From: Thermoproteota archaeon
GTDB taxonomy: Archaea; Korarchaeota; Korarchaeia; B14-G2
Assembly: GCA_003661385.1 (NCBI GenBank)
Contig: QMWA01000009.1
Span: 1 to 24,824 of the forward strand
Direction of reading: 5' to 3'
Length of the DNA: 24,824 bases
Part shown: positions 3,854 to 11,587 of the stretch, in pieces
Numbering within the stretch: position 1 is the stretch's first letter
Layout: the number at the start of each line of letters is the position of its first letter
Notes under the pieces: model-generated
What the model was told of the DNA's origin: nothing
What the model saw: the letters and a program-made list of their open reading frames with translations, nothing else
The model's database searches: none
Program-made: the position numbers and the translations under genes

Positions 3854-4627
3854 ATGCCTCCGATACTGGAGCTCATAAGAAAGTACTTCATAGAGCCAAT
3901 ATTGAAGGGCTCAGGCTACAACCCAGTCAACACAGCAGCATATGCAGCTCTATTCCTGCTAGCTCTGCTGATGGTAGTGAAAATATTCGAGAAGCTCAGG
4001 CTCCTGGAGGGCTTCATAGGGACAAGGAAGTTCACCCTGACCATGGTGCTCTACGGCGTCATGGCAGGCCTCCTGAGGGTAGCAAGAGACGCAGGCGTCA
4101 CAAGCACGCTGCTCCTCGTGACTCCGATGATATTTGGTGTGATGACGGCTGTGTTCCTCTCCATGGCGGTGGCATCAAAGCTGCTTGGGTCTCCACTCCC
4201 ATTTCAGCTAGCTCCGCTTCCATCCATAGCTGTGCTCGCCGTCCTAGGAGCTCCTCAAAACCTGAGGGCGCTAGCATACATCCTAGCACTCAACCTCCCA
4301 CTGATAGCAGCGTACATACCTGCTAAGCAGAAGTCGGTGGTCGCGCTGGTGCACAGCCAGTACTTCGACGCTACAGCGACTGTAGTGGCCATAAGCCAAG
4401 GCTACTGGGAGCAGCACGTGATCCCACGGCTTATACTCAGCATCCACCCCTACCCCCTAGCTGCTGTGCTGTTCATGTCGCTGAAATCCCTGGTAGCGCT
4501 GCTGCTCGCCAGAGCTCTAACCACACCTGAACTGGGGTGGAAGGGGGAGCTAGTCAAGGGGATACTAACCTCACTCGGCTTTGGGACAGGGGTGAGAGAT
4601 GCGCTGAGAGCCACCTACCTCGTGTAG
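3854..4627 (+). CDS. DUF63 family archaeal membrane protein
   Basis: This 257-residue polytopic protein has roughly seven hydrophobic segments. Its N-terminus (RKYFIEPILKGSGYNPVNTA) is the characteristic opening of the archaeal DUF63 family, and HSQYFDATATVVAI in the second half is another conserved block. No biochemical function is established for the family that I know of. It begins 4 bases after the M50 protease stop and has no promoter of its own, so it is probably made with the protease; a shared membrane role is an inference only. The length is normal for the family. The 3' flank holds the inverted repeats described separately. Confidence 0.85.
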   Translation: MPPILELIRKYFIEPILKGSGYNPVNTAAYAALFLLALLMVVKIFEKLRLLEGFIGTRKFTLTMVLYGVMAGLLRVARDAGVTSTLLLVTPMIFGVMTAVFLSMAVASKLLGSPLPFQLAPLPSIAVLAVLGAPQNLRALAYILALNLPLIAAYIPAKQKSVVALVHSQYFDATATVVAISQGYWEQHVIPRLILSIHPYPLAAVLFMSLKSLVALLLARALTTPELGWKGELVKGILTSLGFGTGVRDALRATYLV

Positions 4628-4817: not shown

Positions 4818-6842
4818 ATGTCTGCTGCGAAGTATGCTGCAGTGTTCATAGTTGGAATACTTGTAGGCGGCATAGTGGTATACGGGGCTTTTCCAAGGAA
4901 GGTGGTTAAAGAAGTCGTCAAGGAGGTTCCAAAGGAAGTTGTTAAGACCAAAGAGGTTGTTAAGGAGGTTACAAAGGAGGTGCCAATAAAGCCAAACTTC
5001 GTGATAGTATACGACCAGGCAACCAAGATACCTGAAGGAGAGCTCATGAGATGGACTAACATAAACCCAGGTGGCCTATACAGCCTAGAGCTCTCAGCTC
5101 TGATCCTAGCAGCAAGATATGAGACAGATGCTGCCAAGAGAGCTGCCCTGTACGCTGCAGTCCAGAGGCTAGCTAACGACGAGCTCCCACTAATCTACCT
5201 GTACCAGCCCCACATAAGGCTACACTACTGGAACTGGGTAAAGAACTACTATGCCAACCCAATTGCACCAGACTTCAAGATAAACTGGCTCGAAAAGGAC
5301 CCAAGCGCACCGAGGCCAGACCAGATAGTGTATGTCACGATAGGTGAGCCTGAGTCTCTCGACCCTGCTGTCTCATATGAGTCAGCAGGCTGGTTCATAG
5401 CTGGGAACGTGTATGAGAGGCTAGTAGAGTACTACCTAGATCACACCGATTACGTGATCCCTGGGCTAGCTGTCGCGTGGGCAGTAAGCCCAGATGGCTT
5501 AAACTACTACTTCGCTATAAGAGCCGGAGTGAAGTTCTACGACCCATATGAGGGCAAGACCTACGACCTAAAGCCATCTGACGTAGTCTTCTCGATAAAG
5601 AGGGTCGCTGGGATAAAGGAGAGCCCAAGCTGGATAATAACAGACTTCATAGATGTCGATGCAGTAACGGTCGTGAGCGAAGATGAGATGAAGGACATAC
5701 TCGCAAAGGGCCTAGACGTACCAGTGAAGGGCAAGTCATACACCGTCAAGAGCCTAGACGAGTGGGTTGATGTCTTCAAGAAGGAGTTCCCTGAGGTCCC
5801 ATACCAGAAGGACTTCCAGATAGCAGGCTTCGTGAAGGTCCCAATGATAGAGCCATACCCAGCTCTCCCACTGCTAGCATCAATAGTAGGCTCAATAGTC
5901 TCAGAGGACTACATCAAGGCTCATGCAACACCAGATGACCCATGGGCTACTGAGTACATGTACGAGCACCCCTGTGGAACTGGAGCATACTACGTTGAGT
6001 CATGGGAGCACCAGGCTCAGATCGTGCTCAAGCCCAACCCACACTACTGGGGGCTACCAAAGCCCAAGATAAAGGAGTTCATCTACAAGATAGTGCCAGA
6101 AGCCCAGAGCAGGATCCTGGCGCTGAAGGCTGGTGACGCTGACTTCGGCTACGTGCCAGCTCCAGTGGAGGAGCAGATGGAGGGCGTGACCCTAGAGCAC
6201 GGCGGCAAGACCTGGAAGTTCATCCAGGAGAGCAAAGGCTATGACCTAGCGCAGGTACACCTGGTACCAAACTGCGCTAAGCCGCCATTCAACAACAAGC
6301 TCGTAAGGCAGGCCTTAGCCTGGGCGATACCATACGACGAGATAATAAAGACTGTCCTGATGGGGCATGGAGACCCAGTCTACGGCCCGATAGTCAGAGG
6401 CCTCTTCGGCTACACCGAGGATGGCATAACAAAGTACAACCTGAACCTTGAGAAGGCAAAGGAGCTGCTGAAGAAGGCTGGAGTAGACCTATCAAAGTAC
6501 AGCATCGAGATAGCATACAACGAGGGCAACAAGGTAAGAGAGCAGATAGCAACAATCCTACAGCAGACATGGAGCCAGCTGGGATTCAAGGAGGTGAAGG
6601 TCACAGCATACGCGTGGCCAACTTACATAGACAAGCTGGAGACCGGAGACTTCGACGTGGGCATAATAGGCTGGGGAGCCGACTACGCTGACCCAGACAA
6701 CTTCGCATACCCACTGGCAACAGGAGGATACAAGTTCATAGGCCTAGAGGTAGTCTGGCTGAGCCCAACTGAAGCCACAGTATTCAAGACCACCAAGGAC
6801 ATCATCATGATAGCTCCATCAGGCAGAGCGATCGTAGGCTAG
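4818..6842 (+). CDS. Peptide/oligopeptide ABC transporter substrate-binding protein (family 5), apparently circularly permuted
   Basis: This 674-residue membrane-anchored binding protein captures peptides, or possibly sugars, for the permease genes that follow. Order seen: a membrane anchor at residues 1-25 with no lipobox Cys; a Lys/Glu/Val repeat stalk at 26-57; then residues about 88-160, with ARYETDAAKR, IYLYQP and WVKNYYANP. That last block is the signature of the C-terminal end of SBP family 5 proteins. The canonical N-lobe opening VYVTIGEPESLDPA starts only at about residue 170. The normal central order follows to GWGADYADPDNF at about 618-629, after which only 45 residues remain, without the usual NPEVD...TDPAKR...LYQ block. 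The gene therefore reads as a circular permutant. It is intact, with its own promoter and a T-run after the stop. The longer GTG start at 4779 is rejected because it lies on the TATA box. Confidence 0.9.
   Translation: MSAAKYAAVFIVGILVGGIVVYGAFPRKVVKEVVKEVPKEVVKTKEVVKEVTKEVPIKPNFVIVYDQATKIPEGELMRWTNINPGGLYSLELSALILAARYETDAAKRAALYAAVQRLANDELPLIYLYQPHIRLHYWNWVKNYYANPIAPDFKINWLEKDPSAPRPDQIVYVTIGEPESLDPAVSYESAGWFIAGNVYERLVEYYLDHTDYVIPGLAVAWAVSPDGLNYYFAIRAGVKFYDPYEGKTYDLKPSDVVFSIKRVAGIKESPSWIITDFIDVDAVTVVSEDEMKDILAKGLDVPVKGKSYTVKSLDEWVDVFKKEFPEVPYQKDFQIAGFVKVPMIEPYPALPLLASIVGSIVSEDYIKAHATPDDPWATEYMYEHPCGTGAYYVESWEHQAQIVLKPNPHYWGLPKPKIKEFIYKIVPEAQSRILALKAGDADFGYVPAPVEEQMEGVTLEHGGKTWKFIQESKGYDLAQVHLVPNCAKPPFNNKLVRQALAWAIPYDEIIKTVLMGHGDPVYGPIVRGLFGYTEDGITKYNLNLEKAKELLKKAGVDLSKYSIEIAYNEGNKVREQIATILQQTWSQLGFKEVKVTAYAWPTYIDKLETGDFDVGIIGWGADYADPDNFAYPLATGGYKFIGLEVVWLSPTEATVFKTTKDIIMIAPSGRAIVG
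4902..4983 (+). repeat. Degenerate tandem repeat coding for the VKEV-rich stalk
   Basis: Imperfect units of GTTGTTAAGGAGGTT-like sequence recur, with a 42-base period best seen between the units beginning near 4913 and 4955. They translate to VVKEVPKEV / VVKEVTKEV, a charged, probably helical or extended spacer between the membrane anchor and the binding lobes. The repeat stays in frame and could expand or contract without breaking the gene. Confidence 0.6.
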
Positions 6843-6946: not shown

Positions 6947-7957
6947 GTGGCAGAGCTAAAGTACTACCTGATACGCAGAGTGATAACCTTCCTACCGACA
7001 GTTGTCGGGATGCTTTTCCTCGTGTTCCTTGTCTCGCACATAGTCCCAGGGGATCCAGCTAGGCTATGGGCTGGCCCTGAGAAGGCAGTTAAGCCTGAGG
7101 TGCTCGAGAAAATAAGGAGGCAATACTACCTAGATAAGCCATGGTATGTTGCTTTCTGCTACTATATGAGGGATGTGTTTACTGGAAACTGGGGCAAGTC
7201 TCCTGTAACCAACAGGAAGATAATAGACGACATAAAAACATACTTCCCAGCTACAGCTGAGCTAGCAATAGTATCTGAGCTTCTGATAATAGCTGTGGGG
7301 GTTCCATTCGGGATAGTATCTGCTCTAAAGAGGGACTCGATAATAGACCATGTTGCGCGTGTTTTCTCGCTGATAGGGACCTCGCTACCAATATTCCTCA
7401 CTGCAATATTCTTCCAGTATGTGTTCTACTTCAAGCTCAGGCTCGTTCCTCTCGGTGGCAGGGGGGTTAAGCCTGAAGTCGTGAGGACAGGCCTATACAT
7501 TTTGGACAGCTTGCTGTGTGGAGACTGGCATGCACTCTTAGAGAACCTCAAGACGATAATCCTCCCTGCACTAGCTCTATCGATGTTAGGCATGGGGATA
7601 GTCACCAGGATAACTCGGAGCAGCATGTTGGATGCACTAGGCTCTGACTTCGTGGACTACGCGAAGATGAAGGGCTTGCCGAACAGGTGGGTCATTTACA
7701 GGCATGCTCTCAAGAATGCGCTGGTTCCAGTGGTCACAGTCTTGGGTCTCCAGTTCGGTGGCTTGCTAAGCGGGGCAGTAATAACTGAAACAGTGTTCGC
7801 TAGGCCTGGTGTAGGGAGATATGCTGTCCAAGCAGCTTACTCCCTAGACTACCCCGCTATAATAGGGGTCACCCTGCTGATAGGCCTCGTCTACATCTTC
7901 GCTAACCTCGTAGTCGACATACTCTATGCCTGGATAGACCCTAGAGTCAGGCTATGA
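6947..7957 (+). CDS. Peptide ABC transporter permease, DppB/OppB type
   Basis: This 336-residue inner-membrane permease has about six transmembrane segments. It begins with the family opening LIRRVITFLPTVVGM followed by HIVPGDPAR. The cytoplasmic EAA loop that docks the ATPases reads DYAKMKGLPNRWVIYRHALK at about residues 240-260, followed by GGLLSGAVITETVFARPGVG. The start is GTG 6947, with GGGG at 6937-6940 and a TATA-like box further upstream. It is first in the four-gene permease/ATPase operon; the next gene starts 9 bases after its stop. The substrate (di- or oligopeptide, or an oligosaccharide as in some archaeal family members) cannot be read from the sequence. Confidence 0.95.
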   Translation: MAELKYYLIRRVITFLPTVVGMLFLVFLVSHIVPGDPARLWAGPEKAVKPEVLEKIRRQYYLDKPWYVAFCYYMRDVFTGNWGKSPVTNRKIIDDIKTYFPATAELAIVSELLIIAVGVPFGIVSALKRDSIIDHVARVFSLIGTSLPIFLTAIFFQYVFYFKLRLVPLGGRGVKPEVVRTGLYILDSLLCGDWHALLENLKTIILPALALSMLGMGIVTRITRSSMLDALGSDFVDYAKMKGLPNRWVIYRHALKNALVPVVTVLGLQFGGLLSGAVITETVFARPGVGRYAVQAAYSLDYPAIIGVTLLIGLVYIFANLVVDILYAWIDPRVRL

Positions 7958-7966
7958 GGTCAGAGC

Positions 7967-8989
7967 ATGAAGGAGAAGCTAGCTCGCGGACTAAATAGGA
8001 TGCTAGACTTAATGGGCTATGGGGAGAAGTGGAGGGAGTGGAAGCGGAAGCGCAGAGCGATGTTCGAGGAGTGGGAGCTGATGTACAAGGCCCTCAAAAG
8101 GTCTCCTCTGGCTAAAGCTGGAGCTGCAATGGCTGTAGTCTTCTTTATCCTAGGAATTTTTGGCCCACAGATCCTAGCACTGATCAACGGCCTGTACAGC
8201 CTTCTCTACAGCCAGGGTATCATAAAGCAGAAGATTGTCCTTGACCCCTACAAGATATTCGCTGGCCCACGCCTCGGGAAGCCAAGCCTCCTCCACCCAT
8301 TTGGCTGCGATGAGTATGGCAGAGACCTATTCGCCAGGGTGCTGACTGGGGCCAGAGTATCCCTGATAGTCAGCGTAGTAGTGATATCTCTCGGAATACC
8401 ACCTGGAATACTTCTGGGCCTAGTTTCAGGCTACTATGGCGGGAAGGTAGACGAGTTCATAATGAGGGTAACCGATGTGTTCCTAGCATTCCCAGCACTG
8501 GTCCTAGCAATGGCTATAGCAGCTTCTTTAGGTGCAGGCTTAAAGAGCGCCATAATAGCGCTCACTATAGTGTGGTGGCCAAGCTACGTGAGGCTGGTCA
8601 GAGGGCAGGTGCTGAGTGCAAGAGAGAACGTCTACGTCGAGGCTGCGAGAGCTATTGGAGTCAGCAACCTAAGGATAATGGTCAAGCACATACTCCCGAA
8701 CATAATATCCCCTGTCATAGTCCTAGCAACCCTAGACTTCGGCACAGTGGTCATATTGAACGCTGCTCTGAGCTTCATAGGACTCGGAGCTCAGCCTCCT
8801 ACACCAGAGTGGGGGAGGATAGTATACGATGGCCTAGACTACCTCATGATGGCCCCCTGGTACTCGATAATCCCTGGGACAGCGGTATTCCTCACAGCAC
8901 TGGGCTTCAACCTCCTAGGAGACGGCCTCAGAGACGTTCTAGACCCCCGGATAAGGAGGAGCATAGAGTTCGCATCAGGTAGAGAGTAG
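7967..8989 (+). CDS. Peptide ABC transporter permease, DppC/OppC type
   Basis: This 340-residue second permease subunit pairs with the preceding DppB-like protein. An unusually basic N-terminal region of about 45 residues (KWREWKRKRRAMFEEWE) precedes the first membrane segment. HPFGCDEYGRDLFARVLTGA and the EAA loop VEAARAIGVSNLRIMVKHIL are the family hallmarks, followed by LSFIGLGAQPPTPEWG. The start is ATG 7967; the ribosome site GAGGT overlaps the upstream stop codon, which suggests coupled translation. The ATPase gene follows after 7 bases. Confidence 0.95.
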   Translation: MKEKLARGLNRMLDLMGYGEKWREWKRKRRAMFEEWELMYKALKRSPLAKAGAAMAVVFFILGIFGPQILALINGLYSLLYSQGIIKQKIVLDPYKIFAGPRLGKPSLLHPFGCDEYGRDLFARVLTGARVSLIVSVVVISLGIPPGILLGLVSGYYGGKVDEFIMRVTDVFLAFPALVLAMAIAASLGAGLKSAIIALTIVWWPSYVRLVRGQVLSARENVYVEAARAIGVSNLRIMVKHILPNIISPVIVLATLDFGTVVILNAALSFIGLGAQPPTPEWGRIVYDGLDYLMMAPWYSIIPGTAVFLTALGFNLLGDGLRDVLDPRIRRSIEFASGRE

Positions 8990-8996
8990 TGGGAGC

Positions 8997-9977
8997 ATGA
9001 GCAGGAGAGATGAGATCCTCAGGATAGAAGACCTCTATGTCCACTTCTACACCTATGCTGGCGTCGTCAAGGCGATAGATGGCGTCAACATGAGCGTCCT
9101 GCGAGGCGAAACCTACGGGCTAGTAGGTGAAACAGGCTGTGGGAAAAGCGTCACCATGAGAGCAGTTCTCAGGCTGATCCCACCACCAGGCAGAATAGTA
9201 AAAGGCAGAGTAATATTCAACGGAGTAAACCTACTGGAGCTGCCAGAGGAGGAGATGAGGAAGATCAGGGGAGCTAAGATAGCCTATATAGTGCAAGATC
9301 CGACAGCAGCACTAGACCCCCTCTACACGAGCGGCTTCCAGGTAGCTGAAACAATCCTAGCGCACGAAGAGAACGTAGGCAAGAAGTCGGTATGGGAGCG
9401 TGTAGTCTCACTGTTCAAGTCAGTCCTCATACCCGATGCAGAGAGGAGGGTTAAGCAGTACCCACATGAGTTCAGCGGAGGGATGAGGCAGAGAGTAGTA
9501 ATAGCATGCGCCATAAGCGAGAAGCCAGAGCTCCTGATAGCAGACGAGCCTACGACATCAGTAGACGTCACGGTGCAGGCGCAGATCCTGGAGGTCCTAG
9601 AGGACTTGAAGAAAACCCAGGAGATGACCATGATCCTGGTAACACACAACCTCGGGCTAGTAGCTCAGATATGCGATAGGGTTGGTGTCATGTACGCTGG
9701 CTCAATAGTTGAGGTAAGCGATGTCTTCAGGCTGTTCGAGGAGCCTCTCCACCCCTACACGAGAGGTCTGCTAAACGCTATACCCCACGTAACCAGAACC
9801 CAATTCAGGCTCGAGCCAATACCTGGCACAATTCCTGACCTGATAAACCCGCCACCAGGCTGCAGGTTCCACCCCAGGTGCAAGCACGCAACGGGAATCT
9901 GTAAGAGGGAGAAGCCTAAGCTGAGGGAGATAGAGCCAGGCCGCTTTGTCGCATGCCATCTGTATAGAGGTGATTAG
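8997..9977 (+). CDS. Peptide ABC transporter ATPase, DppD/OppD type
   Basis: This 326-residue ATPase energises import. Walker A GETGCGKSV is at residues 44-52, signature SGGMRQR at 160-166, Walker B LLIADEP ending at 185, and the switch histidine lies in VTHNLG. The C-terminal oligopeptide-transporter extension carries four cysteines (C289, C295, C302, C320) in GCRFHPRCKHATGIC...ACH. A comparable Cys set has been reported to hold an iron-sulphur cluster in some Dpp ATPases; whether it does here is inference. The start is ATG 8997. The partner ATPase gene starts 2 bases after its stop, so the pair is coexpressed as a heterodimer. Confidence 0.95.
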   Translation: MSRRDEILRIEDLYVHFYTYAGVVKAIDGVNMSVLRGETYGLVGETGCGKSVTMRAVLRLIPPPGRIVKGRVIFNGVNLLELPEEEMRKIRGAKIAYIVQDPTAALDPLYTSGFQVAETILAHEENVGKKSVWERVVSLFKSVLIPDAERRVKQYPHEFSGGMRQRVVIACAISEKPELLIADEPTTSVDVTVQAQILEVLEDLKKTQEMTMILVTHNLGLVAQICDRVGVMYAGSIVEVSDVFRLFEEPLHPYTRGLLNAIPHVTRTQFRLEPIPGTIPDLINPPPGCRFHPRCKHATGICKREKPKLREIEPGRFVACHLYRGD

Positions 9978-9979
9978 CT

Positions 9980-10945
9980 ATGGAGGCTCCGCTCATCCAG
10001 GTAAAGGACCTGGTAAAGTACTTTCCCGTGAAGAAGCTGTTCATCACAGTAGGCCAGGTCCACGCAGTGGATGGCGTTTCATTCGAGATAATGAGGGGAG
10101 AGACCTTCGGGCTGGTAGGCGAGTCCGGGAGCGGGAAGACAACGCTCGGCCGCCTCATGCTAAGGCTTCTCACACCAACCTCAGGGGACGTGGTTTACAA
10201 CGGGAGAAGCATATTCGAGCTGGAGGGAGGTGAGCTGAAGGAGTTCAGGAGAAGAGCTCAGATAGTGTTCCAAGACCCCTACACGTCGCTCAACCCACGC
10301 ATGACGATATATGACATACTGTCTGAGCCAATAAACGTGCATAAGATCAGGATACCTGACAAGAGGGAGTACATAGTCAAGCTACTTGAGACAGTGGGCC
10401 TTGGTGAAGAGCACCTCTACAGGTACCCACACGAGTTCAGCGGAGGCCAGAAGCAGAGGATTGCTATAGCTAGGGTTCTAGCCTTAAGGCCTGAGTTCAC
10501 AGTCTTAGATGAGCCGACCTCAGCTCTCGATGTCAGCGTCCAGGCGCAGATCCTCAACATGCTCAAGGAGCTGCAGTCAGAGTTCAAGTTCACATACCTG
10601 TTCATCTCACATGACCTATCAGTAGTCAAGTTCATGAGCCACAGGATAGCTGTGATGTACGTGGGGAAGATCATTGAGGTAGCTCCATCAGATGACCTGT
10701 TCTCAGAGCCACTCCACCCATACACCCAGATGCTCCTATCTGCTCTCCCCGTCCCTGACCCCAAGTACACGAGAAGCAAGCAGATAATAAAGCCAAGAGG
10801 CCAGGTTCCGAGCGCAATCTCGCCTCCACCAGGCTGCAGGTTCCACCCCAGGTGCCCATTTGCAAGGGAGAAGTGCAAGGCTGAGGAGCCTGAGCTAAGG
10901 GAGGTCAAGCCCAGCAGGCTAGTAGCCTGCCACCTCTACTCCTAG
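9980..10945 (+). CDS. Peptide ABC transporter ATPase, DppF/OppF type
   Basis: This 321-residue second ATPase forms a heterodimer with the DppD-like subunit. Walker A GESGSGKT is at residues 47-54, signature SGGQKQR at 154-160, Walker B TVLDEP ending at 179, and the H-loop lies in ISHDLS. The C-terminal extension has cysteines C286, C292, C299 and C317 in the same arrangement as its neighbour. It is last in the operon. Its final 27 bases overlap the 3' end of the convergent unknown gene. The ABC core is complete and probably active. Confidence 0.95.
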   Translation: MEAPLIQVKDLVKYFPVKKLFITVGQVHAVDGVSFEIMRGETFGLVGESGSGKTTLGRLMLRLLTPTSGDVVYNGRSIFELEGGELKEFRRRAQIVFQDPYTSLNPRMTIYDILSEPINVHKIRIPDKREYIVKLLETVGLGEEHLYRYPHEFSGGQKQRIAIARVLALRPEFTVLDEPTSALDVSVQAQILNMLKELQSEFKFTYLFISHDLSVVKFMSHRIAVMYVGKIIEVAPSDDLFSEPLHPYTQMLLSALPVPDPKYTRSKQIIKPRGQVPSAISPPPGCRFHPRCPFAREKCKAEEPELREVKPSRLVACHLYS

Positions 10946-11587
10946 AGCTCGAGCTACCTCCCCCATCACCTTATCATTCTTCTTAGCTAGCACTCTGAGC
11001 CTCCTATCCTCTTCACCAGAGTTCAAGTCAAAGAACACATGGCTCTCAAGGCATACTGCAAACGGAACATACACAACAAGCTCTCTCTCAGGCTCTCTCA
11101 CCTCACCAAGCTCCCTGATAATCCCTCTAGCCACCACAAGGTCAACTACATCCCTAAGCTCGTCAGCAGCCCTGACTCTGGGCTTAGGCATGAAAGCTGC
11201 CCTAGCAAAGTCGGCTCTAGCAAGCTCCACCGCATACTCAAACCTGTACTCACTAAGCTCCCTCATCCTGGACTCGGCCTCAGATGCAGCCTTGAGCAGA
11301 AGCTCTAGGAAGCTCCTGCTCTCCTCTGGAGTGCACCCCATGCATGCTCCAGCTGGCGCTCCAGGAGCCCAGCCTACAACCCTACGCAAGAGGAGCACCG
11401 CGTCAATAGGGTCTACCAGAAACCTCGAGAACACCTCATTGACTCCCACCAGGCCTCTATCTGTCTCTAGAGCCCTATACGGCATCCACAGCTCCTTCAG
11501 TTCACCAGCCTCGCAGGCCTTAGCTGCCTGCTTCAAGCTGAACCTCACGGGAAGATGCCCCACACGAGCACTCAAGACCTCCCCCAA
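10919..11587 (-). CDS. Hypothetical protein, family not recognised
   Basis: This 222-residue soluble protein has no signal or membrane segment that I can see. The middle contains a CMGC pair of cysteines (APAGACMGCTPEESRSF) followed by a long Glu/Arg/Ala-rich helical stretch. The C-terminal third is alternating hydrophobic (LVVYVPFAVCLESHVFFDL) and ends in a basic segment. I recognise no catalytic motif. The start is TTG at 11587, one base after the stop of the CPBP-like gene, so the two are probably translated together. An alternative TTG lies 12 bases inside. A role linked to the membrane gene upstream is only a guess from position. The 3' end overlaps the transporter ATPase by 27 bases. 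Confidence 0.7.
   Translation of the reverse strand: MGEVLSARVGHLPVRFSLKQAAKACEAGELKELWMPYRALETDRGLVGVNEVFSRFLVDPIDAVLLLRRVVGWAPGAPAGACMGCTPEESRSFLELLLKAASEAESRMRELSEYRFEYAVELARADFARAAFMPKPRVRAADELRDVVDLVVARGIIRELGEVREPERELVVYVPFAVCLESHVFFDLNSGEEDRRLRVLAKKNDKVMGEVARALGVEVAGY

Follow-up and report, generated by a model that had tools for sequence, protein, structure and literature searches.

The closest described counterparts of the protein analyzed here are the family 5, cluster C solute-binding proteins (SBPs) DppA of Escherichia coli (1dpe) and HbpA of Helicobacter pylori (6ofq), which have a similar body fold (Z 24–25) and have motifs and DppBCDF partners in common with it. Compared with them, the present protein has a rotated chain, an extra hairpin after the DPDNF motif that is split between the two ends, and a long stalk. 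A membrane-tethered SBP with a naturally permuted chain is already known, namely TpMglB-2 (Tp0684) of Treponema pallidum, designated "Type Ic / Cluster Bc," for which the authors likewise propose a tethering advantage (PMC4990184). However, TpMglB-2 is a cluster B sugar-binding protein with a permuted N-lobe and a single described topology, whereas the relatives of the present protein show several openings among orthologs; the Pfam, sequence, and structure matches of the present protein are all to family 5/cluster C, not to cluster B. What appears to be new here is permutation in family 5, with several openings and a case within one genus. The original prediction, made from sequence alone, knew of no family 5 precedent, and none was found described in the open-license literature searched.

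The window, by which we mean the whole 24,824-nucleotide stretch of korarchaeal DNA analyzed (contig QMWA01000009.1), contains at 4818–6842 an ORF of 675 codons, at the same coordinates as originally predicted. Its product passes the curated PF00496 cut-off (251 bits versus 32.4), but the match covers only residues 213–637 (E 1.9e-74). A linear domain search recognizes such a protein only in part, PF00496 missing the moved block, and such cases are therefore easily overlooked. In what follows, S2 denotes the old C-terminal block, S3 the old N-terminal part, and S4 the middle part, the canonical order being S3–S4–S2. The parts of the window protein are as follows.

4818..6842, + strand: circularly permuted family 5 SBP, 674 aa (ORF, PF00496, segment order, relatives)
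4830..4886, + strand: N-terminal hydrophobic segment, residues 5–23, probable membrane anchor (sequence; inference)
4899..4985, + strand: VKEV-repeat stalk, residues 28–56 (sequence)
4989..5021, + strand: KPNFVIVYDQA, the strand that ends the split hairpin and now begins the mature domain (comparison with intact type B hairpins)
5073..5282, + strand: S2, canonical C-terminal block, residues 86–155, moved to the front (block HMM, HbpA 457–522, alignment)
5298..5318, + strand: DPSAPRP linker from old C terminus to old N terminus, residues 161–167 (linker comparison)
5319..6053, + strand: S3, canonical N-terminal part, residues 168–412 (HbpA alignment, segment mapping, DppA superposition)
6054..6737, + strand: S4, canonical middle part, residues 413–640, ending shortly after DPDNF (same basis as S3)
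6738..6839, + strand: present C-terminal tail, residues 641–674, containing the opening strands of the divided hairpin (hairpin comparison)

The window protein is a natural circular permutation of a family 5 SBP, as shown by the rotation of its segments and the presence of each in a single copy. In phmmer comparisons with the solved chain of HbpA, residues 171–263 align to chain positions 34–126, residues 358–633 to 184–442, and residues 86–150 to 457–522. Because this last match is weak by itself (7.8 bits), a dedicated HMM was built from 25 canonical relatives, using their C-terminal fragments only (-Z 20000); it finds a single match in the window protein, at residues 91–154 (E 1.1e-15), which is as strong as its matches in true canonical C termini, and it detects no second copy of the block. 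Consistently, a full-length canonical HMM matches the window protein with profile positions 434–494 first (37 bits) and 9–417 second (285 bits), whereas canonical controls each give one colinear match and a shuffled sequence gives no match. The linear order is S2–S3–S4, each segment occurring once, in place of the usual S3–S4–S2. The moved block is 23–38% identical to canonical C termini. Among outside relatives, most of them bacterial, 36 ORFs gave matches to both the block and the C-part, and in all 36 the block lies C-terminal to the C-part, in the canonical order. A frame-shifted or lost canonical C terminus was also considered and rejected: only 104 bases separate the stop codon from the next gene, and relatives end alike.

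Most of the original prediction held. The HMMs and the HbpA alignment bear out its claim that a block with TDPAKR-like (TDAAKR) and LYQP motifs precedes the canonical opening; DPDNF ends at residue 629 and is followed by 45 residues, as it had said; DPSAPRP joins the old ends; and one copy of each segment is present in an intact frame. Its placement of the new termini in the loop after DPDNF also held and can be refined: the chain is broken within the extra hairpin inserted there, so that the first strands of the hairpin (KDIIMIAPSGRAIVG) form the present C terminus, and the domain now begins, behind the stalk, with PNFVIVYDQA, the final hairpin strand. Of the membrane anchor and VKEV stalk claimed for the new N terminus, the stalk is present in the sequence, and the anchor is probable but inferred. 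The break within an inserted hairpin and the several differently opened rings in archaea, described below, had not been foreseen.

The structure of the window protein was predicted with AlphaFold2 from an alignment of 49 body rows and 8 C-terminal fragments (mean pLDDT 78, pTM 0.78). With the body rows alone the block is poorly modeled, residues 91–140 having pLDDT 28–78; once the C-terminal fragments are added, the same residues reach about 80–91 (ten-residue means) and form a helix–helix–strand unit, with the strand at 126–138, and the body strand 464–467 is extended to 464–475. In a sequential superposition, model residues 168–641 fit DppA (1dpe) 1–430 with Z 24.3 and an rmsd of 3.0 over 407 residues. 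The model is consistent with predicted docking of the block into the body, a reading that rests on the confidence values and on strand 464–475, with no non-sequential superposition. A predicted fold in which the front block does not complete the C-lobe would have refuted the original prediction, and this outcome was not met. The hairpin and stalk are modeled without confidence, the C-terminal tail (641–674) with low confidence, and the hydrophobic segment 5–23 as a helix, also of low confidence.

Four genes of an ABC importer lie just downstream.

6947..7957, + strand: permease, DppB-like (PF00528, E 1.4e-45)
7967..8989, + strand: permease, DppC-like (PF00528, E 2.4e-35)
8997..9977, + strand: ATPase, DppD/OppD-like (PF00005 and PF08352 oligo_HPY)
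9980..10945, + strand: ATPase, DppF/OppF-like (PF00005 and PF08352 oligo_HPY)

Genes for DppB, C, D, and F adjoin the permuted gene at 23 of the 24 loci examined; near the permuted gene of L243, no such set was found in the stretch examined. From operon, fold, and motifs we infer, without experiment, that the window protein is an ordinary family 5 importer subunit, ligand binding being itself inferred. It falls far below all NCBIfam equivalog cut-offs, including that for the DppA dipeptide-binding equivalog NF043070 (160.5 bits versus a curated 1005), and a substrate is therefore not assigned. The operon is directly followed by a 222-residue frame without any Pfam match (10922–11587, – strand), and a DUF63 membrane protein (PF01889) is encoded upstream of the binding protein (3854–4627, + strand).

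Relatives with a permuted chain are present in about 130 archaeal genomes, many of which are complete. A search of relatives for the same order, suggested by the original prediction, found the S2–S3 junction in many independent genomes, several of them complete and including the single-contig G033, G055, G083, and G086; duplication of the block, which would have marked it as an extra module, was seen in none. In L005 (G014, of the window's class) the same order is found in one ORF with 48% identity over residues 55–666, and the single-contig G033 and G055 have the S2–S3–S4 order at about 40–42% identity to the window protein. The permuted family is present in 64 of 115 genomes of the class of G033, every one of them in family f10, which we take to be Thermococcaceae, a few of the copies being partial; in about 60 of 229 genomes of the class of G053, counting clear permuted ORFs (a raw tally of 77 also includes canonical partial matches); in family f12 (seven genomes) and family f87 (one genome); and, for the window protein's own permuted family, in only 2 of 26 genomes of the window's class. 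A scan of 84,980 species returned 77 loci, none of which was seen to be permuted, but it covers close relatives only and may omit near genomes; no relatives were found in viral contigs. Some Thermococcaceae copies (G094, G108, G158) are frame-split or contain an internal stop. In G088 a second permuted copy spans the record start (C1:1860551-1861318 and 2-1354), a full copy also being present. In L005, the type C relative closest to the window protein, the last ~130 residues of the 795-codon frame form an additional C-terminal domain (..VGGPMANPF..VAGTNRFGTEAA..), which we take to resemble archaeal S-layer protein domains.

Comparison of these relatives shows that the opening of the ring has changed repeatedly. 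The yardstick was P0002 (S1 80–137, S2 138–235, S3 236–497, S4 501–726), S1 being the additional helix-and-hairpin element of the post-DPDNF loop. Type A proteins (S1–S2–S3–S4) are opened before the hairpin, at two different points: before the S1 helix in Thermococcaceae and after it in the class of G053. Type B proteins (S4–S1–S2–S3) are opened after "NPYYW..", between "..YYWNATLWEQLYGYKP" and "..HKTVIYLINND". In type C (the window protein, L005, and L188–L193), S1 is split between the two ends. The Thermococcaceae type A proteins (L006/P0002, L007) share the S2–S3 fusion, the operon, and the opening loop region with the window protein, to which they are about 40% identical, but are opened before the hairpin. 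In all three types S2 is joined to S3 by a DPxAP-like linker, which suggests one original fusion.

Trees were computed from proteins rotated to canonical order with S1 excluded, the A and B groups being set by architecture. Type A and type B are each rejected as a single clade (AU p 2.7e-74 and 2.4e-13, respectively). The B proteins of genus g46 are nested inside Thermococcaceae A; Thermococcaceae A without g46 is rejected as a clade (p 0.0015), as it is when the L206/L207 group is included in the test (p 7e-10). The Thermococcaceae clade p is only indicative because the test was prompted by the first tree, and long-branch effects near the root are possible. In a tree of the DppBCDF partner genes, the g46 B operons likewise fall among A operons (SH-aLRT 94–95), and, within Thermococcaceae, the B gene of G083 and the A gene of G033 have flanking genes in common; these two are therefore orthologs in place.

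A fourth architecture, type D (S4b–S2–S3–S4a), is opened in mid-S4. It is exemplified by Archaeoglobus-like lipoproteins (L257–L259), also permuted family 5 SBPs, whose permutation is of separate and recent origin relative to types A, B, and C. In genus g340, which we take to be, probably, Archaeoglobus, G709, G712, and G715 carry type D, whereas G710, G711, G713, and G714 carry the canonical order. Between the two, DNA blocks of 956 and 476 bp are swapped, with about 79–80% identity and clean edges; both pieces are orthologous and together make up the whole mature protein. The type D proteins keep the signal peptide and lipobox in front, have a short new linker at the old ends, and stop at the cut. 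The type D gene of G709 is divergent to DppBCDF, and in G550, of canonical order, the gene heads the DppBCDF operon; in the canonical g340 species, the stretch examined around the gene showed no DppBCDF set. Further type D proteins occur in G734 (L256), in G654/G544 (L290, L291), and in the window's class (L292–L294, L296); in L256 and in those of the window's class the anchor is a C-terminal rather than an N-terminal hydrophobic segment. A quick 45-row tree with long branches requires at least nine architecture changes over five types, with starred branches forcing four for type D. In DppA numbering (chain 1dpp), the B opening lies near 205–209 and the D opening near 339; we take the former to be in domain I and the D and A/C openings to be in domain III.

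Collectively, these data make very likely a model in which a rotated importer subunit with an unchanged fold arose by duplication, and did so repeatedly in archaea; the fold, the function, the tether shift, and the duplication route are inferred. The window protein would be the membrane-anchored binding subunit of the DppBCDF-type ABC importer, with an ordinary two-lobed family 5 fold whose chain is rotated, its old ends fused by the DPxAP linker and its new ends created by opening inside the hairpin of the post-DPDNF loop. A peptide-like or other family 5 ligand would be caught between the lobes and passed to the permeases as usual, and the protein would hang from the membrane by another part of the fold. 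The mature domain would have been duplicated in tandem and in frame, the old C terminus thereby being fused to the old N terminus, after which the ends would have been trimmed, leaving the signal peptide and stalk before the new start; the process would have recurred in archaea, with openings limited to a few loops. This route accounts both for the retention of the signal in front and for the presence, in every case, of one complete set of segments. We infer that duplication and truncation is the likeliest origin, although no intermediate was found: no tandem dimer is present among the open frames retrieved, the longest A/B/C frame having 809 codons. That relocation of the tether brought a benefit is possible, as a hypothesis.

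Among the alternatives, the one that survives best is that the opening point is neutral and without functional consequence, which we consider as likely to be right as wrong. In its favor, types A, B, and C all have the same operon partners, and the openings fall in loops; against it, the anchors differ with the opening (N-terminal membrane segment, lipobox, or C-terminal hydrophobic segment), a pattern that is suggestive but untested. Less likely, though possible, is that the different openings go back to a single ancient fused tandem dimer that each lineage trimmed on its own, without repeated new duplications. The S2–S3 linker common to A, B, and C allows a single fusion, and the two kinds of A, like C, represent different openings within the same hairpin. 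However, no dimer is seen (A/B/C frames ≤809 codons), the g46 B proteins are nested among A orthologs, and the Archaeoglobus-like type D, separate, recent, and without a dimer ancestor, shows that an ancient dimer was not the sole route. It is very unlikely that permuted genes arise by reintegration of a circular RNA or DNA intermediate: these archaea do have well-documented circular RNAs, rRNA among them (PMC7758197, PMC9014305), but random reintegration would not leave a signal peptide or membrane segment in front, as is seen in most cases, and no footprint of a circular intermediate was found. Also very unlikely is the view that the front block was added, as a duplicate or a foreign module, to an SBP that separately lost its C terminus. 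Such loss and gain would yield the identical linear order, and the block is only distantly similar to canonical C termini (23–38% identity); yet every member has one copy of the block, the B and D proteins keep it attached to its canonical preceding segment, and the two pieces in the Archaeoglobus-like genus are orthologs that leave no part of the mature protein unaccounted for. Finally, an assembly or binning artefact producing a chimera of two SBP genes is all but excluded, for although the genome assembly that contains the window is a draft, in 206 contigs, the same order recurs at 48% identity in another genome of its class, the junction is present in single-contig genomes, and a DPxAP-like linker is conserved across relatives.

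Evidence for natural circular permutation usually comes from the comparison of distant homologs; here, several openings of one ring are found among orthologous, operon-linked proteins, and congeners differ by a precise rotation. Two old questions become testable, namely how a permutation can come about with function preserved throughout and whether it matters to an ABC importer where the termini or tether lie, and the archaea concerned include cultivable genera. A bolder reading, which we think rather more apt to fail than to stand, is that permutation recurs at hot-spot loops, sometimes within a genus, because it moves the tether around an unchanged fold, with selection acting on how the protein hangs. 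If this is true, the orthologs of one operon type would represent a series of natural permutants, selected for the way in which they hang from the membrane. As a separate observation, L298 (reverse strand) and L301 (4970–6550) encode congeneric lipoproteins, one canonical and one type D, at ~80% DNA identity.
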